DNA of 64,000 nt from Acanthornis magna (Eukaryota > Chordata > Aves > Passeriformes > Acanthizidae). The stretch spans positions 1-64,000 of the forward strand of contig JAWUZG010000955.1 of NCBI GenBank assembly GCA_036785705.1, given 5' to 3'. This document shows, one piece after another, positions 6,641 to 63,590 of this stretch (position 1 is its first letter; every line of letters begins with the position of its first letter). The notes under the pieces are model-generated. The model searched no databases. It saw only the letters and a list, made by a program, of their open reading frames with translations, and was not told the DNA's origin. Position numbers and translations under genes: made by a program.

Positions 6641-8349
6641 CATCCCAGTTCAATCCCAGTCCCATCCCAGGACAAACCAGTATCAAAATCCCCATTTTTC
6701 CCCATTTTTTTCCCATTTTTCCCGAATTTTTCCCAATTTTCCATTCCCAGTCCCTCCCAGTTTGATCCCAGTTCGATCCCAGTCCATTCCCAGTCCCTCC
6801 CAGTCCATTCCCAGTCCATTCCAGTACAAACCAGTATCAAAATCCCCATTTTTTCCCATTTTTCTTCATATTTTCCCATTGTTTTCCCAATTTTTTTGCC
6901 AATTTCCCATTCCCAGTCCCTCCCAGTCCATTCCCAGTCCCTCCAGTACAAACCAGTATCAAAATCCCCATTTTTTCCCCATTTTTCATCATATTTTTAC
7001 CATTTTTCCCCAATTTTCCCATTTTTTTCCCAATTTTTTCCCATTTTTCCCCAATTTTCCCCAATTTTTCCCCAATTTTCCCCTCCCAGTATAAACCAGT
7101 CAGTCCCCAGTCACCACCAGCTCCTCCAGGATCTCTCCCACCAGGCTCAGGTTCGTTCCCAGTCCCTCCCAGTACAAACCAGTATCAAAATCCCCATTTT
7201 TCGCTTTTTTTTTCCCCCAATTTTTCCCATTTTTTCCCAATTTTTCCCAATTTTTTCCCCATTTCCCATTCCCAGTTCATTCCCAGTCCCTCCCAGTACA
7301 AACCAGTATAAAAATCCTCTTATTTTCCTCCTGTTTTTTCAATTTTTTCCATTTTCTTTCATTTTTTTCCCATTTTTTCTCATTTTTCTGTTTTTTTTCT
7401 CAATTTTTCCCCATTTTTCCCCAATTTTCCCCAATTTTTCCCCAAATTTTCCCTCCCAGTATAAACCAGTCAGTCCCAGTCACCACCAGCTCCTCCAGGA
7501 TCTCTCCCACCAGGCCCAGGTTTGTTCCCAGTCCCTCCCAGTACAAACCAGTATCAAAATCCCCATTTTTCGCCTTTTTTTTCCCCAATTTTTCCCATTT
7601 TTTCCCAATTTTTCCCGATTTTTTCCCCATTTCCCATTCCCAGTTCATTCCCAGTCCCTCCCAGTACAAACCAGTATAAAAATCCTCTTTTTTTCCTCCT
7701 GTTTTTTTCAAATTTTTTCCATTTTTCTTTCATTTTTTTTCCCATTTTTCCTCATTTTTCTGGTTTTTTTCCTCAATTTTTTCCCCATTTTTCCCCAATT
7801 TTCCCCAATTTTTCCCCAATTTTCCCCTCCCAGTATAAACCAGTCAGTCCCAGTCACCACCAGCTCCTCCAGGATCTCTCCCACCAGGCCCAGGTTTGTT
7901 CCCAGTCCCTCCCAGTACAAACCAGTACCAAAATCCCCATTTTTCCCGAATTTTTCCCAATTTTCCATTCCCAGTCCCTCCCAGTTTGATCCCAGTTCGA
8001 TCCCAGTCCATTCCCAGTCCCTCCCAGTCCATTCCCAGTCCATTCCAGTACAAACCAGTATCAAAATCCCCATTTTTTCCCATTTTTCTTCATATTTTCC
8101 CATTGTTTTCCCAATTTTTTGCCAATTTTCCATTCCAGTCCCTCCCAGTCCATTCCCAGTCCCTCCCAGTACAAACCAGTATCAAAATCCCCATTTTTTC
8201 CCCATTTTTCATCATATTTTTACAATTTTCCTCCCCATTTTCCCATTTTTTTCCAATTTTTCCCAATTTTTTCCCATTTTTTCCCAATTTTCCCCAATTT
8301 TTCCCCAATTTTCCCCTCCCAGTATAAACCAGTCAGTCCCAGTCACCAC
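6641..8349. repeat. C/T-rich minisatellite, AP4M1 intron side next to coding exon 4 donor
   Basis: The base bias flips at about 6640 from G/A-rich to C/T-rich on the plus strand. Units combine a cccagtccctcccagt block with a tatcaaaatccccattttt block and repeat at about 360-370 bp. Three units include a copy of the 3' end of AP4M1 coding exon 4, listed separately. On the AP4M1 sense strand this is purine-rich intron beginning directly after the exon 4 donor. Confidence 0.85.
7118..7900 (-). pseudogene. Three donor-edge shards of AP4M1 coding exon 4
   Basis: Copies of about the last 40 nt of AP4M1 coding exon 4, plus its donor and the first intron bases, lie at about 7118-7158, 7487-7526 and 7861-7900. 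They match the real exon end (8350 upwards) nearly base for base, including the residues GLVGEILEEL in the sense frame. They lack the 5' part of the exon and any acceptor, so they read as intronic duplicates of an exon edge. They sit about 370 bp apart inside the C/T-rich array. Confidence 0.85.
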
Positions 8350-8443
8350 CAGCTCCTCCAGGATCTCTCCCACCAGGCCCAGGTTTGTTCCGAGGCTTTT
8401 TTCGCTCACGGGGCCACAGAAATCTCTCAGCAGAGTCACCAAC
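8350..8443 (-). CDS. AP4M1: AP4M1 coding exon 4
   Basis: The acceptor CCCCAG|GTTGG falls at 8444/8443; the first base completes the CG carried over from exon 3, giving Arg. The exon encodes LVTLLRDFCGPV, then SEKSLGTN and GLVGEILEEL, aligning with the conserved TLLGDYCG and LLDEVL stretches of mammalian AP4M1. The donor is ambiguous by one codon: CTG|GTGGTG ends the exon at 8350 and GTG|GTGACT at 8347; both keep the frame. It is the only copy with both ends intact. Donor-edge shards lie downstream on the sense strand and acceptor-edge shards upstream. Confidence 0.85.
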
Positions 8444-11400
8444 CTGGGGAGGAAAAAATCCAAAATTTGGCCCAGAAAGTTCCCAAAAATTGGGAAATTT
8501 ATCCCAAAAATTCACAAAATTTATCCTAAAAATTCCCGGAATTTAGCCCAAAAATTCACAAAATTTAGCCCAAAAATTCACAAAATTTAGCCAAAAATTC
8601 ATAAAATTTAGCCCAAAAATTCCCAGAATTTATCCCAAAAATTCACAAAATTTATCCCAAAAATTCCCAGAATTTATCCCAAAAATTCACAAGATTTATC
8701 CCAAAAATACACAAAATTTATCCCAAAAATTCCCAGAATTTATCCCAAAAATTCACAAAATTTAGCCCAAAAATTCCCGGAATTTATCCCAAAAATTTTC
8801 AGAATTTATCCCAAAAATTCACAAAATTTATCCCAAAAATTCCCAGAAAAATTCTGAAAAATGGCGAAAAATTCCAACAAAAAAAGAGAAAGATCTCAAA
8901 AATTGTCAAAAGTCATTCCAAAAATTCCTAAAATTTATCCCAAAAAATCCTGGAATTTATCCTGAAAAATTCTGGGAAAAAATCACCAAAAAAATTCCTG
9001 AAAACTCAAAAAAAATTCAAAAATTGAGCTCCAAAAATTGCACAGAAATCTCTCAGCAGAGTCACCAACCTGGGGAGGAAAAATCCAAAATTTGGCCCAA
9101 AAAAGTTCCCAAAAATTGCCGAAATTTATCCCAAAATTCCAGAATTTATCCCAAAAATTCCCAGAATTTAGCCCAAAAATTTCCCAGAAAAATTCTGAAA
9201 AATCACAGAATTTATCACGAAAATTCACAAAATTTATCCTAAAAATTCCCGGAATTTATCCCAAAAATTTTCAGAATTTATCCCAAAAATTCACAAAATT
9301 TATCCCAAAAACTCCTGGAATTTATCCCAAAAATTCACAAAATTTACCCCAAAAATTCACAAAATTTATCCCAAAAAATCCTGGAAAAATTCCCAAAATG
9401 GCCAAAAATTCCAACAAAAAAGGGGAAAAAAAAATCTCAAAAATTGTCAAAAGTCATTCCAAAAATTCCTAAAATTTATCCCAAAAAATCCTGAATTTAA
9501 TCCCAAAAAAATCCCCGAAAAAATAATCAAAAAAATTCCCCAAAAATCTCAAAAAAAAAAAAATTCGAAAATTGAGCTCCAAAAATTGCACAGAAATCTC
9601 TCAGCAGAGTCACCAACCTGAGAGGAAAAAATCCAAAATTTGGCCAAAAAAGTTCCCAAAAATTGCCGAAATTTATCCCAAAAATTCACAAAATTTATCC
9701 CAAAAAATCCTGGAAAAATTCCCAAAAAATCCCAGAATTTATCCCAAAAATTCCCAGAATTTATCCCAAAAATTCCCAGAATTTAGCCCAAAAATTCCCA
9801 GAATTTAGACCAAAAATTCACAAAATTTATCCCAAAAATTCACAAAATTTAGCCCAAAAATTCCAGAAATTATCCCAGAAATTCCCAAAATTTATCCTAA
9901 AAATTCCCAGAATTTATCCCAAAAATTTTCAGAATTTAGCCCAAAAAATCCCAGAATTTATCCCAAAAATTCCCAAAATTTAGCCAAAAATTCCCAGAAT
10001 TTATCCCAAAAAATCTCAGAATTTATCCCAAAAATTCCAGAATTTATCCCAAAAATTCACAAAATTTAGCCCAAAAATTCCCAGAAATTATCCCAAAAAT
10101 TCACAAATTTTATCCAAAAATTCACAAAATTTAGCCCAAAAATTCCAGAATTTATCCCAAAAATTCTTGGAATTTATCCCAAAAATTCACAAAATTTATT
10201 CCAAAAGTTCCTGGAATTTATCCCAAAAATTACCAAAATTTATCCCAAAAATTCACAAAATTTAGCCCAAAAATTCTCAGGATTTATCCCAAAAATTCCC
10301 GGAATTTATCCCAAAAAATTCACAAAATTTATCCAAAAATTCACAAAATTTATCCCAGAAATTCACAAAATTTATCCCAAAAATTCCCAGAATTTATCCC
10401 AAAAATTCACAAAATTTAGCTCAAAAATTCCCAAAATTTATCCCAAAAATTTCCCAGAAAAATTCTGAAAAATGGCGAAAAATTCCAACAAAAAAAGGAG
10501 AAAAATCTCAAAAATTGTCAAAGTCATTCCAAAAATTCCTAAAATTTATCCCAAAAAATCCTGAATTTAATCCCAAAAAAATCCCCGAAAAAATAATCAA
10601 AAAAATTCCCCAAAAATCTCAAAAAAAAAAAAAAATTCGAAAATTGAGCTCCAAAAATTGCACAGAAATCTCTCAGCGGAGTCACCAACCTGGGGAGGAA
10701 AAATCCAAAATTTGGCCAAAAAAGTTCCCAAAAATTGCTGAAATTTATCCCCAAAATTGTCAGAATTTATCCCAAAAAATCCCAGAATTTAGCCAAAAAT
10801 TCCAAGAATTTATCCCAAAAATTCCTAGAATTTATCCCAAAAATTCACAAAACTTATCCCAAAAATTCCCAGAATTTATCCAAAAATTCCCAGAATTTAT
10901 CCCAAAAATTCACAAAATTTATCCCAAAAATACACAAAATTTATCCCAAAAATTCCCAGAATTTATCCCAAAAATTCACAAAATTTAGCCCAAAAATTCC
11001 CGGAATTTATCCCAAAAATTTCAGAATTTATCCCAAAAATTCACAAAATTTATCCCAAAAATTCCCAGAAAAATTCTGAAAAATGGCGAAAAATTCCAAC
11101 AAAAAAAGAAATCTCAAAAATTGTCAAAAGTCATTCCAAAAATTCCTAAAATTTATCCCAAAAAATCCTGGAATTTATCCTGAAAAATTCTGGAAAAATT
11201 CACAAAAAAAATTCCTGAAAACTCAAAAAAAAATTCGAAAATTGAGCTCCAAAAATTGCACAGAAATCTCTCAGCAGAGTCACCAACCTGAGAGGAAAAA
11301 ATCCAAAATTTGGCCAAAAAAGTTCCCAAAAATTGCCGAAATTTATCCCAAAAATTCACAAAATTTATCCCAAAAAATCCTGGAAAAATTCCCAAAAAAT

Positions 11401-14400
11401 CCCAGAATTTATCCCAAAAATTCCCAGAATTTATCCCAAAAATTCCCAGAATTTAGCCCAAAAATTCCCAGAATTTAGACCAAAAATTCACAAAATTTAT
11501 CCCAAAAATTCACAAAATTTAGCCCAAAAATTCCCAGAAATTATCCCAGAAATTCCCAAAATTTATCCTAAAAATTCCCAGAATTTATCCCAAAAATTTT
11601 CAGAATTTAGCCCAAAAAATCCCAGAATTTATCCCAAAAATTCCCAAAATTTAGCCCAAAAATTCCCAGAATTTATCCAAAAAATCTCAGAATTTATCCC
11701 AAAAATTCCCAGAATTTATCCCAAAAATTCACAAAATTTAGCCCAAAAATTCCCAGAAATTATCCCAAAAATTCACAAATTTTATCCCAAAAATTCACAA
11801 AATTTAGCCCAAAAATTCCCAGAAATTATCCCAGAAATTCCCAAAATTTATCCTAAAAATTCCCAGAATTTATCCCAAAAATTTCAGAATTTATCCCAAA
11901 AAATCCCAGAATTTATCCCAAAAATTCCCAAAATTTAGCCCAAAAATTCCCAAAATTTAGCCCAAAAATTCACAAAATTTATCCCAGAAATTCACAAAAT
12001 TTATCCAGAAATTCCCAAAATTTATCCCAAAAATTCACAAAATTTATTCCAAAAGTTCCTGGAATTTATCCCAAAAATTACCAAAATTTATCCCAAAAAT
12101 TCACAAAATTTACCCCAAAAATTCACAAAATTTATCCCAAAAAATCCTGGAATTTATCCAAAAAATTCACAAAATTTATCCAAAAAATTCACAAAATTTA
12201 TCCCAAAAATTCCCAGAATTTATCCCAAAAAAGTCCTGGAATTTATCCCAAAAATTCACAAAATTTAGCCCAAAAATTCCTAGAATTTATCCCAAAAATT
12301 CCCAGAATTTATCCTAAAAATTCCCAGAATTTATCCCAAAAATTCACAAAATTTATCCCAGAAATTCACAAAATTTATCCCAGAAATTCCCAAAATTTAT
12401 CCTAAAAATTCCCAGAATTTATCCCAAAAATTTTCAGAATTTAGCCCAAAAAATCCCAGAATTTATCCCAAAAATTCCCAAAATTTAGCCCAAAAATTCC
12501 CAAAATTTATCCCAAAAATTCCCAAAATTTATCCCAGAAATTCCCAAAATTTATCCCAAAAATTCCCAAAATTTATCCCAAAAATTCACAAAATTTATCC
12601 CAAAAATTTACAAAATTTATTCCAAAAGTTCCTGGAATTTATCCCAAAAATTCCCAGAATTTATCCCAAAAATTCCCAAAATTTACCCCAAAAAGTCCTG
12701 AGAAAATTTTTTTTAAAATCCCGAAAAATTCTCAAATAAATCCCAAAATTCGGCCCAAAAATCCTGAAATTCAGCCCAAAAAATTCCAAAAAAAATCCAA
12801 AAAAATCTAAAAAATTTCCCAAAAAAAATCCAAGCAAAATAAAAAAAAATTCCCAAAAAAATCCAAAAAAATTTAAAAAAAAATCCAAAAAAATCCAAAA
12901 AAATTCCCCAAAAAATAAAAAAAAATTCCCAAAAAACCCCCAAAAAATTGCTAAAAAATTCCCAAAAAATTCCCAAAAATTCCCCAAAATTCCCCGAACC
13001 TCCCGGACCTCCCGGAATTCCCGAATTTCCCGAAATTTCCCCGAAATTTCCCCGAAAATTGGGGATTTTTTGGTTACCGATTGAGGAACTCGACGAGGGT
13101 GAAGGGAGAAGGATCTCCCTCGGAGGCTGCGCCGAAGAAAAGTCCTGCGTGCCTGACGTGCACAAAACGCAGCCCCCCCGCGCTCTGGGGGGCAAAAGTC
13201 ATCCCAAAATTCCCAAAATTTCCCAAATTCCCAAAATTCCCAAAAAAAAATCTGACGAAAATCGCATAAAATTCAATAAAATTGCCGAAATTCCCACGAA
13301 AATCGCATAAAATTCACTGAAATTCCCATGAAATTCCCACAAAATCCACCCCAAATCCACTCCAAATTCCCCAAAATATCCCAAAAATTCCATCCCAAAA
13401 TCCCCAAATCCCAAAATTCCCAAAATTTCCCCAAAAAATCCCAAAATTCCCACGAAATTCCCAAGAAATTCCCATAAAAATGGCCCCCAAATGGCCCAAA
13501 GTCCTGCGTGCCTGACGTGCACAAAACGCAGCCCCCCCGCGCTCTGGGGGGCAAAAGTCATCCCAAAATTCCCAAAAATTCCAAATTCCAAAATTCCCCA
13601 AAAAAAATCCGACGAAAATCGCGTAAAATTCAATAAAATTGCCGAAATTCCCACAAAAATCGCATAAAATTCACTAAAATTCCCATAAAATCTCATAAAA
13701 TTCACTGAAATCCCCATCCGAAATTCACCTTAATTCCCAAAAAATTCCATCCCAAAAACCCCAAATCCCAAAATTCCCAAAATTTCCCAAAAAATCCCAA
13801 AATTCTCATAAAATTCCCATAAAATTCCCATGAAATTCCCATGAAATTCCCATGAAATCCATCCAAAATCCACCCAGAATTCCCCAAAATATCCCAAAAG
13901 TTCCATCCCAAAAACCCCAAATCCCAAAATTCCCAAAATTTCCCCAAAATTCCCAAAAATTTCCCAAGAAATTCCCATGAAATTCTCCCAGAATGGCCCA
14001 AAGCTCTCGGTGCCTGACGTGCACAAAACGCAGCCCCCCCGCGCTCTGGGGGGCAAAAGTCATCCCAAAATTCCCAAAATTCCCAAATTCCCAAAATTCC
14101 CAAAAAAAATCCCGAAATTCCCAGCGAAATTCCCCAAAAAATCGCCAAAAAATTGCATAAATTCACTGAAATTGCGCGAATTTCCATCGAAATCTTATAA
14201 AATCCTGACCCAAAATATCCCAAATTCCCAAAAAATTTCGACCTAAAATCCCAAATCCAAAAATCCCAAATCCCAAAATCCCAAATTCCAAAATATCCCA
14301 AAAAATTCCCCAAAATTCCCAAAAAATCCACCCAAATTCCCATAAAGTTCACCAAAGTTCCCATAAAAATCTCATAAAAATCCACTCCAAATCCACCCAA

Positions 14401-17400
14401 AATTCCCCAAAATATCCCAAAAATTCCATCCCAAAAACCCCAAATCCCAAAATTCCCAAAATTTCTCCAAAAAATCCCAAAATTCTCATAAAATTCCCAT
14501 AAAATTCCCATGAAATTCCCACAAAATTCCCATGAATTCTCATAAAATTCCCATAAAATTCCCATGAAATTCCCACAAAATTCCCATGAAATTCACCCAA
14601 AATGCACCCAAAATCCACCCTAAATTCCACAAAATTCCCCAAAATATCCCAAAGTTCCATCCCAAAATCCCCAAATCCCAAAATTCCAAATTTCCCCAAA
14701 AAATCCCAAAATTCCCAAAAAATTTCCATAAAATTCCCATGAAATTCCATAAAATCCATCCCAAAGTCCACTCCAAATCCACACAAAATTCCCCAAAATA
14801 TCCCAAAATTCCATCCCAAAAACCCAAATCCCAAAATTCCAAAATTCCCAAAAAAATCCCAAAATTCTCAAAAAATTCCCAAAAAATTTCCGTAAAATTC
14901 CCATGAAATTCCCATGAAATCCATCCCAAAATGCACCCAAAATTCCACAAAATTCCCCAAAATATCCCAAAAATTCCATCCCAAAAACCCAAATCCCAAA
15001 ATTCCCAAAATTCCCAAAAAAATCCCAAAATTCTCAAAAAATTCCCAAAAAATTTCCGTAAAATTCCCATGAAATTCCCATGAAATCCATCCCAAATGCA
15101 CCCAAAATTCCACAAAATTCCCCAAAATATCCCAAAAATTCCATCCCAAAAATCCCAAATCCAAAATTCCAAAATTTCCCCAAAAATCCCAAAATTCCCA
15201 AAAAATTTCCCAAGAAATTCCCATGAAATTCTCCCAGAATGGCCCAAAGCTCTCGGTGCCTGATGTGCACAAAACGCAGCCCCCCCGCGCTCTGGGGGGC
15301 AAAAATCATCCCAAAATTCCCAAAATTTCAAATTCCCAAAATTCCCCAAAAAAATCCGACGAAAATCGCATAAAATTCAATAAAATTGCCGAAATTCCAC
15401 GAAAATCGCACAAAATTCACTGAAATTCCCATGAAATTCCACAAAATCCACCCCAAATCCACTCCAAATTCCCCCAAAATATCCCAAAAATTCCATCCCA
15501 AAATCCCCAAATCCCAAAATTCCCAAAATTTCCCCAAAAAATCCAAAATTCCCACGAAATTCCCAAGAAATTCCCATAAAAATGGCCCCCAAATGGCCCA
15601 AAGTCCTGCGTGCCTGACGTGCACAAAACGCAGCCCCCCGCGCTCTGGGGGGGCAAAAATCATCCAAAATTCCCAAAAATTCCCAAATTCCCAAATTCCC
15701 AAAAAAATCCCGAAATTCCCAGCGAAATTCCCCAAAAAATCGCCAAAAAATCGCATAAAATTCACTGAAATTGCGCGAATTTCCATCGAAATCTTATAAA
15801 ATCCTGACCCAAAATATCCCAAATTCCCAAAAAATTCCATCCCAAAATCCCAAATCCAAAAATCCCAAATCCCAAAATCCCAAATTCCAAAATATCCCAA
15901 AAAATTCCCCAAAATTCCCCAAAATTCCCAAAAAATCCACCCAAATTCCCATAAAGTTCGCCAAAGTTCCCATAAAAATCTCATAAAAATCCACTCCAAA
16001 TCCACCCAGAATTCCCCAAAATATCCCAAAAATTCCATCCCAAAACTCCCAAATCCCAAATCCCAAAATTCCCAAAATTTCTCCAAAAAATCCCAAAATT
16101 CCAAAAAAATTTCCATGAAATTCCCATGAAATTCCCACAAAATTCCCATAAATCCATCCCAAAATGCACCCAAAATTCCCACAAAATTCCCCAAAATATC
16201 CAAAAATTCCATCCCAAAAACCCCAAATCCCCAAAATTCCCAAAATTTCCCAAAAAAATCCCAAAATTCTCATAAAATTCCCATGAAATTCCCATGAAAT
16301 TCCCATGAAATTCCCATAAAATTCACCCAAAATGCACCCAAAATTCCCACAAAATTCACAAAATTCCCCAAAATATCCCAAAGTTCCATCCCAAAAACCC
16401 CAAATCCCAAAATTCCCAAAATTTCCCAAAAAATCCCAAAATTCCCAAATAATTTCCCATAAAATTCCCATGAGATTCCCATAAAATTCACCCAAAATGC
16501 ACCCAAAATTCCCACAAAATTCCCCAAAATATCCCAAAAATTCCATCCCAAAATCCCAAAATTCCCAAAATTCCCAAAATTTCCCCAAAAAATCCCAAAA
16601 TTCCCACGAAATTCCCAAGAAATTCCCATAAAAATGGCCCCCAAATGGCCCAAAGTCCTGAGTGCCTGACGTGCACAAAACGCAGCCCCCCGCGCTCTGG
16701 GGGGCAAAAGTCATCCCAAAATTCCCAAAAATTCCCAAATTCCCAAAATTCCCCAAAAAAATCCGACGAAAATCGCGTAAAATTCAATAAAATTGCCGAA
16801 ATTCCCACAAAAATCGCATAAAATTCACTAAAATTCCCATAAAATCTCATAAAATTCACTGAAATCCCCATCCGAAATTCACCTTAATTCCCAAAAAATT
16901 CCATCCCAAAAACCCCAAATCCCAAAATTCCCAAAATTTCCCAAAAAATCCCAAAATTCTCATAAAATTCCCATAAAATTCCCATGAAATTCCCATGAAA
17001 TTCCCATGAAATCCATCCCAAAATCCACCCAGAATTCCCCAAAATATCCCAAAAGTTCCATCCCAAAAACCCCAAATCCCAAAATTCCCAAAATTTCCCC
17101 AAAATTCCCAAAAATTTCCCAAGAAATTCCCATGAAATTCTCCAGAATGGCCCAAAGCTCTCGGTGCCTGACGTGCACAAAACGCAGCCCCCCGCGCTCT
17201 GGGGGGCAAAAGTCATCCCAAAATTCCCAAAAATTCCCAAATTCCCAAAATTCCCAAAAAAATCCCGAAATTCCCAGCGAAATTCCCCAAAAAATCGCCA
17301 AAAAATTGCATAAATTCACTGAAATTGCGCGAATTTCCATCGAAATCTTATAAAATCCTGACCCAAAATATCCCAAATTCCCAAAAAATTTAGACCTAAA

Positions 17401-20400
17401 ATCCCAAATCCAAAAATCCCAAATCCCAAAATCCCAAATTCCAAAATATCCCAAAAAATTCCCCAAAATTCCCAAAAAATCCACCAAATTCCCATAAAGT
17501 TCACCCAAAGTTCCCATAAAAATCTCATAAAAATCCACTCCAAATCCACCCAAAATTCCCCAAAATATCCCAAAAATTCCATCCCAAAAACCCCAAATCC
17601 CAAAATTCCCAAAATTTCTCCAAAAAATCCAAAATTCCCACAAAATTCCCATGAAATTCCCATGAAATTCCCATAAAATCCATCCCAAAATGCACCCAAA
17701 ATTCCCACAAAATTCCCCAAAATATCCCAAAGTTCCATCCCAAAAACCCCAAATTCCCAAAAATTCCAAAATTCCAAAATTCCCCAAAAAAATCCGACGA
17801 AAATCGCATAAAATTCAATAAAATTGCCGAAATTCCCATGAAAATCGCGCAAAATTCACTGAAATTCTCATAAAATCTCATAAAATTCACTGAAATCCCC
17901 ATCCGAAATTCACTTTAATTCCCAAAAAATTCCATCCCAAAATCCCAAATCCCCAAAATTCCCAAAATTTACCAAAAAAATCCCAAATTCTCATAAAATT
18001 CTCATAAAATTCCCATGAAATTCCCATGAAATTCCCATGAAATCCATCCCAAAATGCACCCACAATTCCCACAAAATTCCCCCAAAATATCCCAAAGTTC
18101 CATCCAAAAACCCCAAATTCCCAAAATTCAAAATTCCCAAAATTCCCCCAAAAAATCCGACGAAAATCGCATAAAATTCAATAAAATTGGCAAAATTCCC
18201 ACTAAAATCTCATAAATTCACTGAAATCCCCATCCGAAATTCACTTAATTCCCAAAAAATTCCATCCCAAAATCCCAAATCCCCAAAATTCCCAAAATTT
18301 CCCAAAAAAATCCCAAAATTCCACAAAATTCCCACAAAATTCCATAAAATTCCCATGAAATTCCCATGAAATCCATCCCAAATCCACCCAAAATTCCACA
18401 AAATTCCCCAAAATTCCCCATAATATCCCAAAAATTCTACCCCAAAAACCCCAAATCCCAAAATTCCCAAAATTTCCCCAAAAAATCCCAAAATTCCCAA
18501 AAAATTTCCAAGAAATTCCCATGAAATTCTCCCAGAATGGCCCAAAGCTCTCGGTGCCTGACGTGCACAAAACGCAGCCCCCCCGCGCTCTGGGGGGCAA
18601 AAGTCATCCCAAAATTCCCAAAAATTCCCAAATTCCCAAAATTCCCCAAAAAAAATCCGACGAAAATCGCGTAAAATTCAATAAAATTGCCGAAATTCCA
18701 TGAAAATCGCATAAAATTCACTAAAATTCCCATAAAATCTCATAAAATTCACTGAAATCCCCATCCGAAATTCACTTTAATTCCAAAAAATTCCATCCCA
18801 AAATCCCAAATCCAAAATTCCCAAAATTTCCCAAAAAAATCCCAAAATTCCCATAAAATTCCCAAAAATTTCCATAAAATTCCATGAAATTCCCATGAAA
18901 TCCATCCCAAAATCCACCCAGAATTCCCCAAAATATCCCAAAAGTTCCATCCCAAAAACCCCAAATCCCAAAATTCCCAAAATTTCCCAAATTCCCAAAA
19001 TTCCCAAAAAAAAATCCGACGAAAATCGCATAAAATTCAATAAAATTGCCGAAATTCCCACGAAAATTGCATAAAATTCACTGAAATTCTCATAAAGTTA
19101 CCACAAAATCCAACCGAGATCTGCCCATATTCCCCAAAATATCCCAAAAATTCCATCCCAAAATCCCAAATCCCAAAATTTCCCCCAAAAAATCCTAACG
19201 TTCCCAAAAAATTCCCCAAAAAATCCTATAAAAATTGAAAAAATTCACCCAATTCCCATGAAAATCCCAAAACTTCCCACAAAATCCACCCCAAATCCAC
19301 TCCAAATTTCCCCAAAATATCCCAAAAAATTTCACCCCAAAAACCCCAAATCCCAAAATTCCCAAAATTTCCCCAAAATTCCCCAAAATTTCCCCAAAAT
19401 TCCCAAATTTCCCCAAAAATGCCCAAATTTTCCAATTCCCCAAAATTCCCCCAAAATTCCCTCCAAAATCTCCGAAATTCCACCAAAATCCCAAATTTCA
19501 CCTAAAAAAACCCCAAAATTCACCCAAAACTCTCCCAAAATTCCCCAAAATTTCCCCAAAATTCCCGAAATTCCAAAATCCCGAAATTCCCCCAAAATTC
19601 CCCAAAAATTCCCTCCAAAATCCCGAAATTCCACCCAAAATCCCCAAAATTCCACCCAAAACACTCCCAAATTCCCCAAAATTTCCCAAAAATCCCCAAA
19701 TTTCGCCCCAATTCCCCAAAATTCCCCCAAAAATTCCACCCAAAAATCCCCAAAATTTCCACACAAATCTGCCCAAAATTCCCCAAAAAATCCCAAAAAA
19801 CTCCACCCAAAATCCCCAAATTTCACCCAAAAATCCCCAAAATTCCACCCAAAACCCTGAAAATCCACCCAAAATCCCAAAATTCCACCCAAAACTCTCC
19901 CAAAATTCCCAGATTTCCCCAAAAATCCCCAAATTTTCCCAAAAATTCCCAAAAATCCCAAAATTTTGGGATTTACCAGGAACACGGGGGTCTGCTCCCC
20001 CCCCACGGAGGTGACCCCGCGGTAGAACAAATCTGTGACGTCACGGGGGGGCCTGGGGGGGTCCCCGCGGACTTTTTGGGGGGTCAAGGAAATTTGGGGA
20101 AATTTGGGGAAAATTTGGGAAAATTTGGTGAAATTTGGGCATTTTTTGAGGGATTTTTGGGGAAATTTGGGGGAAATTTGGGCATTTTTGGGTGATTTTT
20201 TAGGATTAAAAGGGATTTTGGGGGTCCTGATGACGTCACGGGGGGGCCTGGGGGGGTCCCTGCGGACTTTTTGGGGGGTCAAGGAAATTTGGGGAAATTT
20301 TGGGAAAATTTGGGAAATTTTGGGGAAAATTCGGGAAAATTTGGGTGAAATTTGGGCATTTTTTGAGGGATTTTGGGGAAATTTGGGCATTTATGGGGCA

Positions 20401-22527
20401 ATTTTTGGGGAAGAGAAGAGATTTTGGGGGGCCTGGGGGGGTCCCCGCAGACTTTTTGGGGGGTCAAGGAAATTTGGGGAAATTTGGGGAAAATTTGGGA
20501 AAATTTGGGTGAAATTTGGGCGATTTTTGAGGGATTTTTGGGGAAATTTGGGTGAAATTTGGGCGATTTTTGAGGGATTTTTGGGAAATTTGGGTGAAAT
20601 TTGGGCATTTTTGGGGCATTTTTTGGGGATTAAAAGGGATTTTGGGAGGTCCTGATGACGTCACGGGGGTCCTGGGGGGAAATTTGGGGAAAATTCGGGG
20701 AAAATTTGGGAATTTTTCTGTGGATTTGGGGAAATTTGGGGGTCCTGGGGGAAATTTCAGGAAAATTTGGGTGAATTTCGTAGAAATTTGGAGGTCCTGG
20801 GGGGGGATTTGGGGAAAATTTGGGTGAATTTGGGGAAATTTGGGGGAAATTTGGGATTTTTGGGTGGATTTGGGGAAATTTGGGGGTCCTGGGGGGGGAT
20901 TTGGGGAAAATTTGGGTGAATTTCGGGAAATTTGGGGGAAATTTGGGGATTTTTTGGTGGATTGGGGAAATTTTGGGGTCCTGGGGGATTTTGGGGTAAA
21001 ATTTGGGATTTTGTGGAGAATTCGGAGGAAATTTGGGGATTTTTTGGGGATTGGATGAAATTTGGGGGTCCTAGGAGGGAATTGGGGAAAATTTGGGATT
21101 TTTTTGAGGTTAAAAGTGTTTTAAAGGAATTTTAGAAGAGATTTTGAGGAGATTTAGAGGAATTTGGGGCGATTTTGGGGGTCCTGTGGGGAAAATTTGG
21201 GGAATTTTGGGAATTTGGGGGAAATTTGGGGATTTTTTGGGTAGTTTTTAAGATTAAAAGTGTTTTAAAGGGATTTTAGGAGAGACTTTCAGGGAATTTA
21301 GAGGAATTTGGGGCGATTTTTGGGGTCCTGTGGGGAATTTGTGAGAAATTTGGGGATTTTTTGGGTATTTTTTGAGATTAAAAGCCTTTTAAAGGAATTT
21401 TAAGAGAGGTTTTGAGAGGATTTAGAGGAATTTGGGGCGATTTTTGGGGGTCCTGTGGGGAAAATTTGGGGAATTTGGGGGAAATTTGGGGAATTTGGGG
21501 GAAATTTGGGGATTTTTTGGGTATTTTTTAAGATTAAAAGTGTTTTAAAGGGATTTTAGGAGAGACTTTGAGGGAATTTAGAGGAATTTGGGGCGATTTT
21601 TGGGGGTCCTGTGGGGGATTTGTGGGGAATTTGTGAGAAATTTGGGATTTTTTGGGTATTTTTTAAGATTAAAAGTATTTTAAAGGGATTTTAGGAGAGA
21701 TTTTGAGGGAATTTAGAGCAATTTGGGGCGATTTTGGGGGTCCTGTGGGGAAAATTTGGGGAATTGGGGGGGAATTTGGGGAAATTTGGGGATTTTTTGG
21801 GGTATTTTTTAGATTAAAAGTGTTTGAAAGGGATTTTAGGAGAGATTTTGAGGGAATTTAGAGAATTTGGGCGATTTTTGGGGGGTCTGTGGGGAAAATT
21901 TGGGGAATTGGGGGGAAATTTGGGGAATTTGTGAGAAATTTGGGGATTTTTTTGGTATTTTTTAAGGTTAAAAGTGTTTTAAAGCGATTTTAGGAGAGAT
22001 TTTGAGGAGATTTAGAGGAATTTGGGGCGATTTTGGAGGTCCTGTGGGAAAATTTGGGGAATTTGGGGAAAATTTGGGGAATTTGGGGGAAATTTGTGGA
22101 TTTTTTGGGTATTTTTTGAGATTAAAAGCCTTTTAAAAGGTATTTTAGGAGAGATTTTGAGGGAATTTAGAGAAATTTGGGCGATTTTTGGGGTCCTGTG
22201 GGGAAAATTTGGGGAATTTGGGGAAATTTGTGGATTTTTTGGGTATTTTTGAGATTAAAAGCCTTTTAAATGTATTTTAGGAGAGATTTTGAGGAGATTT
22301 AGAGGAATTTGGGGCGATTTTGGGGTCCTGTGGGGGATTTTGGGTTTTGAGGGGTCCCGGGGTGAATTTTGGGGGTCCCGGGGTGGATTTTGGGTATTTA
22401 GGGCATTTTGGGAGGATTTTTGGGCATTTTGGGAGGATTTTAGGGCATTTTTGCGATTTTAGGCGATACAATCCCTGTAGATCAGAGGATCTCCCTTGGA
22501 GCTGAGGATGAAGAGCTGAGAAATCAT
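8350..22527 (-). CDS. AP4M1: AP-4 complex subunit mu (AP4M1), coding exons 1-4, gene continues beyond left edge
   Basis: AP4M1 is the medium subunit of the AP-4 adaptor, a trans-Golgi heterotetramer (epsilon, beta4, mu4, sigma4) that sorts cargo such as ATG9A. Four minus-strand exons join in frame: 22527-22470, 20071-19977, 13184-13078 and 8443-8350. They give about 118 residues of the N-terminal longin-like domain, which in this family packs against the beta subunit. Matches recalled from mammalian AP4M1 include MISQ-FILSSKGDPLIY at the start, RDV-x-LFYR, F-H-RH-GL, SPF-L-E-L-R and TLL-D-CG. The cargo-binding mu homology domain must lie left of the window. The ATG immediately follows an AG acceptor, so an untranslated exon is expected upstream. 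The gene is head to head with MCM7, as in human. The start codons are 807 bp apart. Confidence 0.9.
8444..12700. repeat. A-rich minisatellite in AP4M1 intron 3
   Basis: This is a tandem array of 20-22 bp units of the type aaaattcccagaatttatcc / aaaattcacaaaatttagcc, with no stretch of normal intron between. Larger segments recur; for example, the stretch around 9560-9990 reappears nearly intact at about 11230-11680. Four units carry AP4M1 exon 4 acceptor-edge copies. No other exon-like segment was seen. Confidence 0.9.
9040..11287 (-). pseudogene. Four acceptor-edge shards of AP4M1 coding exon 4
   Basis: Copies of the first 28-30 nt of AP4M1 coding exon 4, with the preceding AG acceptor, end at 9069, 9617, 10689 and 11287 on the plus strand. 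Each reads LVTLLRDFC in the sense frame and then runs into intron-like sequence instead of the rest of the exon. Two have CCCCAG and two have CTCTCAG before the exon start. They lie upstream of the real exon in transcription order, so they are potential decoy acceptors. Confidence 0.85.
12701..13077. repeat. A-rich simple sequence in AP4M1 intron 3
   Basis: The stretch contains runs of six to nine A separated by ttccc or atcc blocks, grading into a C-richer segment close to the exon 3 donor. No gene or exon copy is visible in it. Confidence 0.8.
13078..13184 (-). CDS. AP4M1: AP4M1 coding exon 3
   Basis: The acceptor CCCCAG|AGCGCG and donor AATCG|GTAACC bound 107 nt (35 codons plus 2 nt). The exon encodes SAGGLRFVHVRHAGLFFG, then AASEGDPSPFTLVEFLNR. 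This matches the mammalian FIHIRHSGLYLV and SPFSLLELLSR segments of the AP4M1 longin-like domain. Frame and phase join exons 2 and 4 without a stop. This is the only full-length copy; seven partial copies of its 5' end lie at 13.5-18.6 kb, upstream in the sense direction. Confidence 0.9.
13185..19976. repeat. A/C-rich minisatellite in AP4M1 intron 2, with higher-order units
   Basis: The array is made of 10-25 bp units such as aaaattcccatgaaattccc and ccaaaatatcccaaaaattc. These are grouped into larger blocks that recur (the block around 13650-14260 resembles 16790-17420). Seven blocks contain an acceptor-edge copy of AP4M1 exon 3. The last 0.7 kb before 19976 (about 19.3-19.97 kb) is a simpler C-rich variant with no exon copy. 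Confidence 0.9.
13499..18589 (-). pseudogene. Seven acceptor-edge shards of AP4M1 coding exon 3
   Basis: Partial copies of about the first 38-45 nt of exon 3, with the AG acceptor and adjoining intron, end at 13543, 14045, 15291, 15644, 16696, 17198 and 18589 on the plus strand. Each keeps GGLRFVH in the sense frame (two, at 15644 and 17198 among others, differ in the length of the C run and so shift frame near the acceptor). They then diverge after the HVRH codons. None has the SPFTLVEFL half or the GTAACC donor, so none can replace the real exon. Confidence 0.85.
19977..20071 (-). CDS. AP4M1: AP4M1 coding exon 2
   Basis: The acceptor AAAAAG|TCCGCG follows a weak pyrimidine tract; the donor is CTG|GTAAAT. 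With the T carried over from exon 1 it starts FRGD. It then has PPRPP, RDVTDLFYRG and EQTPVFL. Mammalian AP4M1 has FRGDSGGRDVAELFYRK here, so the match is clear apart from PPRPP in place of SGG. The length is 95 nt and exons 1 plus 2 make exactly 51 codons. Confidence 0.85.
20072..21100. repeat. G/T-rich minisatellite in AP4M1 intron 1 with two exon 2 acceptor shards
   Basis: The units are of the ggggaaatttggggaaaatt type with interspersed gggggtcctgggggg blocks. At about 20230-20266 and 20428-20451 (plus strand) are copies of the first 24-37 nt of AP4M1 exon 2 with its AG acceptor. The first extends into the gacgtcac that encodes DVT, then breaks off. A degenerate trace lies near 20655-20680. 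No gene otherwise. Confidence 0.8.
21101..22330. repeat. About 125-155 bp minisatellite in AP4M1 intron 1
   Basis: About nine units follow each other, each containing a ggtcctgtgggg block, a gattttttgggtatttttt block, an attaaaag motif (about 21112, 21255, 21379, 21536, 21670, 21816, 21968, 22113, 22255) and an aatttagaggaatttgggg block. No exon copy was seen. The array stops about 140 bp before the AP4M1 first coding exon. Confidence 0.85.
22470..22527 (-). CDS. AP4M1: AP4M1 coding exon 1 (start codon)
   Basis: On the minus strand CCCTCAG is followed directly by the ATG at 22527-22525, and the exon ends GAT T|GTATCG at 22470. It encodes MISQLFILSSKGDPLIYRD plus one base, virtually the same as the start of mammalian AP4M1. 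The unspliced T joins the TC of exon 2 to make Phe. An AG abutting the ATG implies a separate 5' untranslated exon closer to the promoter; I could not fix its position. Confidence 0.93.
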
Positions 22528-22965
22528 CTGAGGGAAAAATTCCATTCAGAGACCCCCGAGAGCCCCAAAATCCCCCAAAATCTTCCCCAAAATCCCCTCC
22601 GCAACTCGAACCCCTCCCGGAGTGGTTGGGACTCCCCAAAATCCTCCCAAAAAACCCCAAAAATGGAGGCCCACCCCTCATATCTGAACCCGCCGAAAAC
22701 GGAGCGGCCCTCACACCCCAAACCCCCGAAACCCAAACGCCCCCGGCCCCAAACCCCTCCCCGCGCCCCCAAATCGCCTCAGGACCCCCAAAATTCCCCT
22801 CAGGACCCCCAAAATTCCTCAGGACCCCCTAAAATCTCCCAAAAAAGGCCGCGCCCCTTTAAGAAGGGCGTGGCCAAGCCCCCCCCCAGGGCCCTCAGAA
22901 CCTCCGCGCCGCTTCCCGCCGCCGCCGCGCGCTCGGCTCCGCCCACCGTGGGCGTGGTTTTGCGT

Positions 22966-22971
22966 CACGTG
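22966..22971. promoter_or_regulatory. E-box CACGTG
   Basis: A TCACGTGG context inside the shared promoter, a typical USF/MYC-MAX target. A second copy is at 23094-23099, also preceded by GCGT, so the GCGTCACGTG decamer occurs twice. Confidence 0.6.
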
Positions 22972-23093
22972 GGCGCCGCCGCGCCTTCCCATTGGCTGGT
23001 GTTTGCCCGCCTCTGGGCGTGCTCTCCCGTGATTGGCCGGCGATGCCGTCACGCGGAGGGAGGTCCCTGCGTTGTGATTGGCCGGCCGGGCGT

Positions 23094-23099
23094 CACGTG
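23094..23099. promoter_or_regulatory. E-box CACGTG, second copy
   Basis: Same GCGTCACGTG context as the site at 22966, next to the third CCAAT box and 12 bp before the E2F-type site. The close spacing suggests one regulatory block. Confidence 0.6.
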
Positions 23100-23110
23100 C
23101 CTGCCTCCGC

Positions 23111-23121
23111 TTTTTCGCGCC
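23111..23121 (+). promoter_or_regulatory. E2F-type site TTTTTCGCGCC
   Basis: TTTTTCGCGCC fits the TTTSSCGC E2F consensus and lies about 220 bp upstream of the MCM7 start codon. MCM genes are classic E2F targets expressed at G1/S, so this is the most likely cell-cycle element. It stands directly before the TCGCGA tandem array. Confidence 0.7.
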
Positions 23122-23124
23122 ATT

Positions 23125-23310: not shown

Positions 23311-23334
23311 AATCGCGACAGGAGCGGTCCCGAC

Positions 23335-58323
<34,989 letters not shown>

Positions 58324-58400
58324 CTTCCGGCGGCGCTGCTGTCGCGGTTCGATCTCCTCTGGCTGCTCCAGGATCGGCCCCAGAGGGATCGCGATCTGAG
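58324..58400 (+). pseudogene. First duplicate of the last 77 nt of MCM7 exon 11 with donor
   Basis: It is identical to the exon 11 end from CTTCCGG to CTGAG as far as read, followed by GTGAGCGGCG. It encodes [19 protein letters not shown] and DRDL. There is no acceptor at its left edge: upstream is repeat (cctgagttcgtgg). It could serve only as a cryptic exon or decoy donor. Confidence 0.92.
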
Positions 58401-61400
58401 GTGAGCGGCGGGGGAGGGGTTGGGGAATTTTTGGGTTGGGTTGGGAAGAGTTTGGAACCAATGGAGAAGGGTTGGGTTGAGTTGGAGAAACTCTTGGATT
58501 CATTGGGAGAATCTTAGGATCAATGGAAGAGTCTTTGGGTTGGGTTGGAGAAACTCTTGGGATCAATGGAAGAGTCTTGGGATCAACGGAAAAGTCTTCA
58601 GATCAATGGGAGAGTCATTGGGTTGAGTTGGGTTGAGTTGGACAAAGTCTTGGGATCAATGGAACAGTTTTGGGATCAATGGAAGAATCTTTGGGTTGAG
58701 TTGGGAAGAGTCTTGGGGTCAATGGCAGAGTCTTGGGGTTGAGTTGAGTTGAATTGGAGAAACTCTTGGATTCATTGGAAGAGTCTTGGGGTCAATGGAA
58801 GAGTCTTTGGGTTGGGTTGGAGAAACTCTTGGATTCATCGGCAGCCATTTGGGATCAATCGAAGAGCCTTGGGGTCAATGGAGAAGTCTTTGGGTTGAGT
58901 TGGGTTGAGTTGGAGAAAGTCTTGGATTCATTGGAAATCATTTCGCATCAACGGAGAAGTCTTGGGGTTGAGTTACAAAGAGTTCGGAACCAATGGAAGA
59001 GTCTTGGGATCAATGGAAGAGTCATTGGGTTGAGTTGGAGAAAGTCTTGGATTCATTGGAAGCCGTTTGGGGTCAATGGAAGAGTCTTTGGGTTGGGTTG
59101 GGAAGAGTTTGGAACCAATGGAGAAGGGTTGGGTTGAGTTGGAGAAACTCTTGGATTCATCGGAAGAGTCATGGGATCAACGGAAGAATCTTTGGGTCAA
59201 TGGAAGAGTCATTGGGTTGAGTTGGGTTGAGTTGGAGAAAGTCTTGGGATCAGTGGAAAAGTCTTTGGGTTGGGTTGGGAAGAGTTTGGAACCAATGGAA
59301 GAGTCTTGTGGTCAATGGGAGAGTTTTGCGATCAACGGAAGAGTGTTTGGGTTGGGTTGGGTTGAGTTTGGAATCAATGGGAGAGTCTTGGGATCAATGG
59401 CAGAGTCTTGGGGTTGAGTTGAGTTGAATTGGAGAAACTCTTGGGTTCATTGGAAGAGTCTTGGGATCAATGGGAGAGTTTTAGGATCAATAGAAGAGTC
59501 ATTGGATTGGGTTGGGTTGGGTTGGAGAAAGTCTTGGATTCATCGGAAGAGTCTTAGGATCAATGAGTTGGATTGGGTTGAGTTGGAGAAACTCTTGGGA
59601 TCATTGGAAGAGCCTTGGGGTCAATGGAAGAGTCTTGGGATTGAGTTGAGTTGAGTTGAGTTGGAGAAACTCTTGGATTCATTGGAAGAGTCTTGGGATC
59701 AATGGAAGAGCCTTTGGGTTGAGTTGGGAAGAGTTTGGAACCAATGGAAGAGTTTGGGATCAATGGAAGAGTCTTTGGGTTCAGTTGGGTTGAGTTGGAG
59801 AAACTCTTGGGATCATTGGAAGAGTCTTGGGATCAACGGAAGAGTCTTTGGGTTGAGTTGGGTTGAGTTTGGAACCAATGGAAGAGTCTTGGGGTCAATG
59901 GAAGAGTCTTTGGGTTGAGTTGGAGGAACTCTTGGATTCATTGGAAGCCGTTTGGGATCAATGGGAGAGTCGTTGGGTTGAGTTGGAGAAAGTCTTGGAT
60001 TCATTGGAAGCCGTTTGGGGTCAATGGAAGAGTCTTTGGGTTGGGTTGGGTTGAGTTTGGAACCAACTGGGAAGGGTTGGGTTGAGTTGGAGAAACTCTT
60101 CGATTCATCGGAAGAGTCATGGGATCAACAGAAAAGTCTTCGGATCAATGGGAGAGTCATTGGGTTGAGTTGGGTTGAGTTGGAGAAAGTCTTGGGATCA
60201 ATGGAAAAGTCGTTGGGTTGAGTTGGGAAGAGTTTGGAATCAATGGGAGAGCCTTGGGGTCAATGGCAGAGTCTTGGGGTTGAGTTGAGTTGAATTGGAG
60301 AAACTCTTGGGTTCATTGGAAGAGTCTTGGGGTCAATGGAAGAGTCTTTGGGTTGGGTTGGAGAAACTCTTGGATTCATTGGCAGCCATTTGGGATCAAT
60401 CGAAGAGCCTTGGGGTCAATGGAAAGGTCTTTGGGTTGAGTTGGGTTGAGTTGGAGAAAGTCTTGGATTCATTGGAAATCATTTCGCATCAACAGAGAAG
60501 TCTTGGGGTTGAGTTACAAAGAGTTCGGAACCAATGGGAGAGTCTTGGGATCAATGGAAGAGTCGTTGGGTTGGTTTGGGTTGAGTTGGAGAAAGTCTTG
60601 GATTCATTGGAAGCCGTTTGGGGTCAATGGAAGAGTCTTTGGGTTGGGTTGGGAAGAGTTTGGAACCAATGGAGAAGGGTTGGATTGAGTTGGAGAAACT
60701 CTTGGATTCATCGGAAGAGTCTTGGGATCAACGGAAAAGTCTTCGGATCAATGGGAGAGTCATTGGGTTGAGTTGGGTTGAGTTGGAGAAAGTCTTGGGA
60801 TCAGTGGAAAAGTCTTTGGGTTAGGTTGGGAAGAGTTTGGAACCAATGGAAGAGTCTTGTGGTCAATGGGAGAGTTTTGCGATCAACGGAAGAGTGGTTG
60901 GGTTGGGTTAGGTTGAGTTTGGAATCAATGGGAGAGTCTTGGGATCAATGGCAGAGTCTTGGGGTTGAGTTGAGTTGAATTGGAGAAACTCTTGGGTTCA
61001 TTGGAAGAGCCTTGGGGTCAACGGAAAAGTGTTTGGGTTGAGTTGAGTTGGGTTGAGTTGAGTTGGAGAAAGTCTTGAGTTCATCGGAAGCCATTTGGGA
61101 TCAATGGGAGAGTCTTTGGGTTGGGTTGGGAAGAGTTTGGAACCAATGGGAGAGTCTTGGGATCAATGGAAGAGTCATTGGGTTGGTTTGGGTTGGGTTG
61201 GAGAAAGTCTTGGATTCATTGGAAAAGTCTTGGGATCAATGGAAGAGTCTTTGGGTTGGATTGGGTTGAGTTGGAAAAAGCTTTGGGGTCAATGGGAAAG
61301 TTTAGAGATCAATGGAAAAGTCTTGGGGTTGAGTTGGAAAGAGTTGGGAAGAGTTTGGAACCAATGGGAGAGTCTTGGGATCAACGGAAAAGTCTTCGGA

Positions 61401-63513
61401 TCAATGGGAGAGTCATTGGGTTGAGTTGGGTTGAGTTGGAGAAACTCTTGGGATCAATGGAAGAGTTTTGGGATCAATGGAAGAGCCTTTGGGTTAGGTT
61501 GGGACGAGTTTGGAACCAATGGAAGAGTCTTGGGATCAATGGCAGAGTCTTGGGGTTGAGTTGAGTTGAATTGGAGAAACTCTTGGGTTCATTGGAAGAG
61601 TCTTGGGGTCAATGGAAGAGTCTTGGGGTTGAGTTGGAGAAACTCTTGGATTCATCGGAAGCCGTTTGGGATCAATGGAAGAGCCTTGGGGTCAATGGAA
61701 AAGTCTTTGGGTTGAGTTGGAGAAACTCTTGGGATCAATGGAAGAGTCTTGGGATCAACGCAAAAGTCTTCAGATCAATGGGAGAGTCATTGGGTTGAGT
61801 TGGGTTGAATTGGACAAAGTCTTGGGATCAATGGAACAGTTTTGGGATCAATGGAAGAATCTTTGGGTTGAGTTGGGAAGAGTCTTGGGGTCAATGGCAG
61901 AGTCTTGGGGTTGAGTTGAGTTGAATTGGAGAAACTCTTGGGTTCATTGGAAGAGTCTTGGGGTCAATGGAAGAGTCTTGGGGTTGGGTTGGAGAAACTC
62001 TTGGATTCATTGGAAGCCGTTTGGGATCAATGGAAGAGTTTTAGGATCAATGGAAGAGTCTTTGAGTTGAGTTGAGTTGAGTTGGGTTGGAAAAACTCTT
62101 GGGATCGTTGGAAGAGTTTTGGGGTCAATGGAAGAGTCATTGGGTTGGGTTGGGTTGGATTGGATTGAGTTGGAGAAGGTCTTGGATTTATCGGATGCCG
62201 TTCGGGATCAATGGAAGAGTCTTTGGGTTGAGTTGGGTTGGGTTGGGTTGAGTTGGAGAAGGTCTCGGATTCATCGGAAACCATTTGGGATCAATCGAAG
62301 AGCCTTGGGGTCAACGGAAAAGTCTTTGGGTTGAGTTGGGTTGAGTTGGAGAAAGTCTTGGATTCATTGGAAATCATTTCGCATCAACAGAGAAGTCTTG
62401 GGGTTGAGTTACAAAGAGTTCGGAACCAATGGAAGAGTCTTGGGATCAATGGAAGAGTCATTGGGTTGGTTTGGGTTGAGTTGGAGAAAGTCTTGGGTTC
62501 ACTGGAAGAGTCTTGGGATCAATGGAAGACTCGTTGGGTTGAGTTGGAGAAAGTCTTGGGATCAATGGGAGAGTTTGGGATCAATGGAAGAGTCATTGGG
62601 TTGAGTTGGAGAAAGTCTTGGATTCATTGGAAGCCGTTTGGGGTCAATGGAAGAGTCTTTGGGTTGGGTTGGGTTGAGTTTGGAACCAACTGGGAAGGGT
62701 TGGGTTGAGTTGGAGAAACTCTTCGATTCATCGGAAGAGTCATGGGATCAACGGAAAAGTCTTCGGATCAATGGGAGAGTCATTGGGTTGAGTTGGGTTG
62801 AGTTGGAGAAAGTCTTGGGATCAGTGGAAAAGTCGTTGGGTTGGGTTGGGAAGAGTTTGGAACCAATGGAAGAGTCTTGGGGTCAATGGAGAAGTCTTTG
62901 GGTTGAGTTGGGTTGAGTTGGAGAAAGTCTTGGATTCATTGGAAGAGTTTTGGGATCAACGGAAGAGTCTTTGGGTTGAGTTGGGTTGAGTTTGGAATCA
63001 ATGGGAGAGTCTTGGGGTCAATGGAAGAGTCATTGGGTTGAGTTGGAGAAAGTCTTGGGATCAATGGGAGAGTTTGGGATCAATGGAAGAATCTTTGGGT
63101 TGGGTTGGGAAGAGTTTGGAACCAATGGAGAAGGGTTGGGTTGAGTTGGAGAAACTCTTGGATTCATTGGGAGAATCTTAGGATCAATGGAAGAGTCTTT
63201 GGGTTGAATTGGACAAAGTCTTGGGATCAATGGAACAGTTTTGGGATCAATGGAAGAATCTTTGGGTTGGGTTGGGTTGAGTTTGGAACCAATGGAAGAG
63301 TCTTGGGATCAATGGAATAGTCTTGGGATTGGGTTGGAGAAACTCTTGGATTCATCGGAAGCCGTTTGGGATCAATGGGAGAGCCTTGGGGTCAATGGAA
63401 AGGTCTTTGGGTTGAGTTGGGTTGAGTTGGAGAAAGTCTTGGATTCATTGGAAGAGTCTTGGGCTCAATGGGAGAGTCTTTGGGTTGAGTTGGAGAAAGT
63501 CCTGAGTTCGTGG
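58401..63513. repeat. MCM7 intron 11, higher-order unit 2 (5190 bp from donor to donor)
   Basis: The unit repeats unit 1 with a constant 5190-bp offset from about 53.56 kb onward (for example 54234/59424, 55105/60295). Only scattered single-base differences were noticed in the stretches compared, such as g/c at 55762/60952 and g/a at 56875/62065. Near its left end it carries about 170 bp more than unit 1. Confidence 0.92.
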
Positions 63514-63590
63514 CTTCCGGCGGCGCTGCTGTCGCGGTTCGATCTCCTCTGGCTGCTCCAGGATCGGCCCCAGAGGGATCGCGATCTGAG
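63514..63590 (+). pseudogene. Second duplicate of the last 77 nt of MCM7 exon 11 with donor
   Basis: Same 77 nt as at 58324-58400, exactly 5190 bp further on, followed by the same GTGAGCGGCGGGGGAGG. Again there is no acceptor. Confidence 0.92.

Follow-up and report, generated by a model that had tools for sequence, protein, structure and literature searches.

Partial copies of exon edges in the introns of AP4M1 and MCM7 of Acanthornis magna: a heavily affected example of exon stuttering

Copies of exon edges in AP4M1, MCM7 and COPS6

The introns of the housekeeping genes AP4M1 and MCM7 in the passerine Acanthornis magna contain partial copies (shards) of the edges of their own neighbouring exons, and this copying is real and far above chance. 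The window analysed comprises the first 64,000 bases of the 173,612-bp contig JAWUZG010000955.1, part of a 1.48-Gb genome represented by a single assembly (GCA_036785705.1). The copies very probably arose as local segments were duplicated in tandem time after time in unstable DNA of the sort reported from avian dot chromosomes, with purifying selection on the coding sequence as a filter, the process termed exon stuttering (Hron et al. 2026, PMC12954441). The locus is a heavily affected further example of this recently named phenomenon, to which it adds copies of stop-codon edges and exon parts of limited length.

AP4M1 and MCM7 were located by tblastn, using human protein sequences as queries, and exon borders were set by GT/AG intron ends together with the open reading frame. 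The resulting model places 15 exons in the window: exons 1–4 of AP4M1 on the minus strand and exons 1–11 of MCM7 on the plus strand. When compared with the chains of the PDB, the spliced MCM7 product matched MCM7 (E = 2.4e-261), and the spliced AP4M1 product, for which exons 1–4 only lie within view, matched the AP-4 mu subunit (E = 8.8e-34), with a Pfam score of 20 bits that falls slightly under the 22.5-bit cut-off. Over the contig as a whole MCM7 has 15 exons, whose 2157-base frame is open and gives 718 codons and a stop. A search of the window against Rfam returned no match at the gathering threshold.

When the 15 window exons were aligned to the window by BLASTn and matches of at least 20 bp were kept, 88 matches were obtained, comprising 15 self-matches and 73 outside the parent exon. 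All 73 non-self matches lie on the same strand as their parent and 72 sit in the adjoining intron, where copies upstream of an exon represent its 5' (acceptor) part and copies downstream its 3' (donor) part; none is a copy of a whole exon. The single distal match scores 18.3 bits, under the best score (32.2 bits) seen in 30 dinucleotide shuffles of the window with exons masked, which gave on average 0.4 matches of at least 20 bp. For contig-wide counts a copy was defined by a threshold of 33 bits or more, at which the window holds 68 copies. A scan with one 24-mer for each of 28 exon edges, allowing up to four mismatches, was positive at 16 edges (seven donor and nine acceptor) and found no distal match. 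Two of these 16 are weak, namely the MCM7 exon 4 donor (10–14 exon nucleotides (nt)) and the exon 6 acceptor (18 nt), which are near noise or seen in the 24-mer scan only. Junction alignments, together with the 16 positive edges, show that the copied stretch runs to the exon border and takes in intron sequence. Shards were found in 11 of the 15 introns (4/4 in AP4M1 and 7/11 in MCM7), with the outermost ones starting at 7115 and ending at 63590.

The initial annotation of the window had proposed that at least twelve exon edges are copied in a directional pattern, in more than 60 shards spanning 7118 to 63590, with full exons never duplicated. These points are borne out by the counts above, and the 24-mer scan exactly recovered the 16 edges it had listed. 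It had placed the phenomenon in the introns of two genes, which holds for AP4M1 and MCM7 and is too narrow, since copies also occur in COPS6 and in the 3' flank of MCM7.

Beyond the window, MCM7 exons 12–15 add 29 copies, all obeying the same rules of adjacency, strand and side, so that 97/97 copies of AP4M1 and MCM7 exon edges across the contig are adjacent to their parent, share its strand and sit on the side predicted. COPS6, a third gene on the contig, was found by tblastn with the human protein and lies on the minus strand; 62/62 of its copies follow the rules, with exon ends that are approximate because they were taken from tblastn cores. For the three genes combined, 159/159 copies conform.

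The last exon of MCM7 (exon 15), which has no donor, is affected in the same way. Nine copies of its coding end lie in the 3' flank (contig 79,942–82,085), and the stop codon is present in 8/9; the longest of these, four in number, hold 62 nt of the exon and continue into matching 3' flank. The coding end of the last COPS6 exon is copied once in its flank. Since a coding end without a splice site has been amplified, a splice site is not required for copying, and what the copied edges seem to have in common is that each borders coding sequence. The 3' flanks of MCM7 and COPS6, whose gene ends were set from coding sequence, may be transcribed or hold an untranslated intron.

Tandem arrays, selection and competing explanations

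The edge of the parent exon forms the terminal unit of a tandem array, in register with the rest among the unit pairs compared. In families with regular spacing, such as those of MCM7 exons 7 and 8, the gap between the true exon and its nearest copy falls into the spacing series of the array. Parent-side units are 0.87–0.99 identical to the other units, compared to 0.78–0.92 for block-shuffled units, in a comparison that left out six pairs of very unequal length. Similarity to the parent showed no consistent trend with distance. The in-register parent edges support the suggestion of the initial annotation that array growth repeatedly started across splice junctions.

Under recurrent tandem duplication, short segments, typically of tens to a few hundred bases, would be duplicated repeatedly, through slippage, unequal exchange or the repair of breaks. 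Any duplication confined to an exon, or spanning a whole one, would change the mRNA and be removed by selection. By contrast, a duplication running from the exon interior into the next intron would leave the exon whole with a partial copy downstream, and one ending inside the exon would leave a partial copy upstream. Tandem arrays would then grow from such units, each ending in the true exon, and the copies would bear no sign of constraint, as is seen in the families compared. The intact exons and the adjacency, strand and one-sidedness of the copies would thus follow from the geometry of duplication and from purifying selection, with no function of the copies needed; one-sidedness would be the only outcome of a one-edge tandem duplication that leaves the mRNA unchanged.

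The initial annotation had also raised the possibility that units owe their retention to the splice-like sequence in them. Such sequence might act as decoy sites, as pseudo-exons that tune expression or in the recursive splicing of long introns. Consistent with this, splice dinucleotides are kept in 65/68 catalogued copies (AG 40/41, GT 25/27), donor cores (-12 to +8) carry fewer changes than their flanks, and a subset of the MCM7 exon 8 (4/10) and exon 7 (4/7) shards are possible pseudo-exons of about 36–40 nt with both splice signals. However, the catalogue favours kept junctions, because some copies were sought with a 24-mer spanning the junction; several exon 6 copies with AT or other bases at the GT position fall outside the tally, and the low rate of change in donor cores is at least partly due to the same search. 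Between copies, the exon parts changed less than the intron parts in 7/13 families, equally in one and more in five (Wilcoxon p = 0.42, in a test that included neither MCM7 exon 6 nor the two weak families). Changes private to one copy were synonymous in 15 cases and not in 27 (15/42 versus 31.5% expected, p = 0.62), as for neutral sequence. Differences from the exon that are common to at least two copies were synonymous in 25/39 cases and not in 14 (p = 3.6e-5), in counts of pooled alleles to which exons 3, 5 and 6 contribute 33/39; this pattern would fit a constrained exon that changes silently while its copies drift neutrally. The coding end of the last exon, where there is no splice site, has been amplified as well. 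Retention for splice-like sequence is not supported, and we consider it very improbable.

A second alternative is that the arrays, or part of their extent, were produced by mis-assembly of low-complexity long reads. The contig is short, the window starts at its end and one assembly is available. MCM7 intron 11 (53379–64000) holds a 5190-bp higher-order repeat, the source of both exon 11 copies, whose units are 99.6–100% identical in 250-bp blocks past the first 750 bases, the longest stretch of full identity being 1692 bp; this repeat is either a very recent duplication or an assembly error. In most families, by contrast, the copies differ by substitutions and small indels, which an assembler would not readily invent, and the coding sequence is unbroken and correctly ordered. 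For PHF8, a published example of exon stuttering, raw nanopore reads confirmed the tandem arrangement (PMC12954441). An artefact is a very unlikely source of the pattern. Insertion of exon pieces as RNA-derived or repair-templated fragments might account for exon pieces that are spaced inside larger array units and for some junctions without an identifiable intron source, but it is scarcely credible, as inserted fragments would be scattered instead of keeping strand, side and adjacency in every one of the 159 copies, and the pieces are contiguous with matching intron flank in arrays whose parent units are in register.

Several observations weigh against tandem duplication filtered by selection, or limit its reach. 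The data are genomic sequence from one assembly. A looser alignment gave two extra weak distal matches (74% and 82% identity), which are probably due to chance. With a stiff, near-ungapped alignment the exon parts of the copies appeared better conserved than the intron parts; this difference was gone once small gaps were allowed, and it arose because slippery intron sequence had been forced into a nearly ungapped alignment. With all exon copies masked, microhomology at copy junctions, a sign that would point to a molecular mechanism, could be used in 6/14 families and exceeded the random value in five of the six (p = 0.22). In favour of the duplication reading, no copies of 24 exon pieces were found at seven MCM-family loci on large contigs, although the pieces (24 of the 26 MCM-domain pieces outside the contig, the other two lying outside the fetched 10-kb stretches) are domain matches that may stop short of the exon edge. 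The firmer half of this control is therefore repeat cover: Tandem Repeats Finder assigned 47–92% of each of 18 contig bins, coding and non-coding sequence together, to tandem repeats, versus 0–3% at the seven control loci.

The length of the exon part is a further difficulty. At 21 splice edges of AP4M1 and MCM7 the copies take in 14–85 nt of the exon (median 43) and at most 52% of it. Random tandem duplication was simulated with five length distributions and three intron lengths, rejecting only duplications that change the mRNA. Duplications with a mean of 40–80 bp reproduced the 43-nt median, whereas a maximum of 52% or less had a probability of 0.004 or less in all 15 settings. With the looser alignment, across the contig, the exon part was 20–93 nt (median 45; 32 query ends, two of them probably chance), and its maximum rose to 67% of the exon, at COPS6 exon 9 with 89% identity. 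The simplest duplication model thus does not explain the short exon parts, which reflect either duplication machinery of short reach or selection against longer pieces. The stop-codon edges, where the exon part is 62/205 nt in MCM7 exon 15 and 37/138 nt (71 with the looser alignment) in COPS6, hint at short-reach machinery over selection (n = 2).

DNA setting and reach of the copying

Putative G-quadruplex motifs make up 11.6% of the window versus 0–1.3% at the control loci; the G runs lie mostly on one strand at a time. AA/TT steps recur every 10–11 bases and at 21 bases along the whole contig, with an autocorrelation at 10–11 bases of 0.15–0.45 compared to 0.01–0.09 in the controls, and the autocorrelation is negative at the half-period in 16/18 bins. 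Peaks near 10–11, 21, 31–32, 42 and 52 bases were present in most of 14 intervals, with 51420–52980 and 53400–64000 fitting poorly. Intron arrays that differ in sequence share A/T tracts phased at about 10.5–11 bp, which the controls are without. The phased tracts suggest that the DNA may be intrinsically curved. A literature search found, by title, no work on 10-bp phasing in bird introns, and the main text of PMC12954441 does not mention the terms periodic, A-tract, curvature, helical, bent or microhomology.

A tentative extension of exon stuttering, which we regard as somewhat less likely than not, is that copying at coding borders is not a splicing phenomenon, extends to the border marked by the stop codon and reaches, by its nature, about 20–90 nt into coding sequence, so that copies would seldom exceed half an exon. 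This ceiling could be a signature left by the machinery of duplication, or else by unseen selection acting on longer pseudo-exons, in a contig that consists throughout of phased A/T tracts.

Copy families along the contig

In AP4M1, on the minus strand, three donor-edge shards of exon 4 (7115–7902), each with 45 exon nt, lie in intron 4 beside their parent (8347–8443), whose donor was taken at GTG/gtgact with CTG/gtggtg as an alternative. Four acceptor-edge shards of the same exon, with 29 exon nt, occupy 9041–11287. Exon 3 (13078–13184) is accompanied by seven acceptor-edge shards of about 36 or 46 exon nt (13498–18589), and exon 2 (19977–20071) by two acceptor-edge shards (20231–20448). All of these families were seen by BLASTn, junction alignment and the 24-mer scan, with parents taken from the exon model. 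The 24-mer scan found no shards of the coding part of exon 1 (22470–22527; tblastn and exon model). Base skew flips sharply at 6639 within AP4M1 intron 4, the plus strand being G-rich before this point and C-rich after it.

The MCM7 families lie on the plus strand and their parents likewise follow the exon model. No shards of the coding part of exon 1 (23335–23365) or of exon 2 (23827–23906) were found by BLASTn or the 24-mer scan. From exon 3 to exon 6, the families were seen by BLASTn, alignment and the 24-mer scan, apart from the two weak ones, which come from the 24-mer scan only. Exon 3 (27129–27293) is followed by 12 donor-edge shards with 30–85 exon nt at a spacing of 147–216 bp (27396–29520). 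Exon 4 (32269–32393) is preceded by four acceptor-edge shards with 39 exon nt (30005–31849) and followed by its two weak donor-edge copies, matching 20 and 21 of 24 bases (32681–33163). On either side of exon 5 (35486–35666) lie at least four acceptor-edge shards with 36–56 exon nt (34344–35372) and four donor-edge shards with 43 exon nt (35769–36329). Exon 6 (37247–37384) has its one weak acceptor-edge copy, matching 20/24 bases, at 37019–37042 and about eight donor-edge shards of about 45 exon nt at 37549–38868, several of which carry AT or other bases at the donor GT position.

The families of exons 7, 8, 9 and 11 were seen by BLASTn and alignment. Seven acceptor-edge shards of exon 7 (38969–40162), with 41–56 exon nt and a spacing of 176–218 bp, precede the parent (40300–40449), and two donor-edge shards with 42 exon nt (41087–41612) follow it; in 4/7 of the acceptor-edge copies CTGT/GTGAGG stands after the break. 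Ten acceptor-edge shards of exon 8 with 36–43 exon nt (42399–45703) are spaced 346–376 bp apart with the parent (46014–46131) in register. These shards break at or just past a donor-like CAC/GTGAGC inside the exon, which is kept in 4/10. Exon 9 (49565–49696) is preceded by three acceptor-edge shards with 35–40 exon nt (48262–48829), and the 24-mer scan found no shards of exon 10 (51332–51415). Exon 11 (52985–53378) is represented by two donor-edge shards between 58322 and 63590, one per 5190-bp unit, whose 79 exon nt are identical to the parent.

Further along the contig, an intron array of COPS6 (contig 112059–126360) holds 26 copies of the donor edge of one exon, and the spacing of near-identical matches points to a higher-level repeat of about 5.1 kb. 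On the minus strand at contig 143600–143674, a peptide resembling a CTD-type nuclear envelope phosphatase was noted, such that the contig may carry at least one more gene.

Relation to described systems and implications

The initial annotation knew of no named system of this kind, a statement contradicted by the description of 'sequence stuttering' or 'exon stuttering' by Hron et al. (PMC12954441), who reported it from 115 chicken genes and 236 introns, 190 of these introns being on dot chromosomes. According to passages of that paper, partial exon copies that include the splice site lie in adjacent introns, with an exon part of 20–187 nt (median 36), and strong intron length polymorphism is a main feature; the authors do not settle on a mechanism and mention replication stress, G-quadruplexes and meiotic gene conversion, and one sentence has intergenic sequence affected by short-repeat variation. 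As in those passages, the partial copies of splice edges here occur only in the adjacent intron and form imperfect tandem arrays on a scale of tens to hundreds of bases, coding sequence stays whole, the introns are mostly simple repeats and the exon part amounts to tens of bases. Of seven features by which exon stuttering may be recognised, the five that the sequence could address were found at the AP4M1–MCM7–COPS6 locus; the other two are intron-length polymorphism within the species and location on a dot chromosome. By contrast with exon stuttering as those passages describe it, a stop-codon edge without a splice site is also copied here. AP4M1, MCM7, COPS6, the stop codon and the terminal or last exon are not named in the main text of PMC12954441, the supplementary gene list lying outside this search, and a literature search found by title nothing on the topic of AP4M1 or MCM7 on microchromosomes.

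Two other avian systems resemble the locus in part. The GC-rich 'hidden' avian genes (BMC Genomics 2019, PMC6792250) likewise have introns and flanks made almost only of G-quadruplex-rich tandem repeats, while the passages describing them contain no exon-edge copies inside introns, unlike here. The 41-bp CNM repeat of chicken microchromosomes (PNAS 2023, PMC9974502), whose arrays are on the smallest chromosomes, shares with the present locus tandem arrays with higher-order structure. CNM, however, is a centromeric family, whereas the introns here carry arrays of local origin, many of which include the edge of the exon next to them.

For the annotation of such genes, these copies are a warning that an intronic match to an exon edge is not necessarily a genuine exon. 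The exon edges act as natural tags for where an array starts, in which direction it grows and how far it reaches, and so make the mechanism of stuttering testable, and old copies may preserve a record of earlier exon sequence. AP4M1, MCM7 and COPS6 sit in DNA that rewrites everything except coding sequence.

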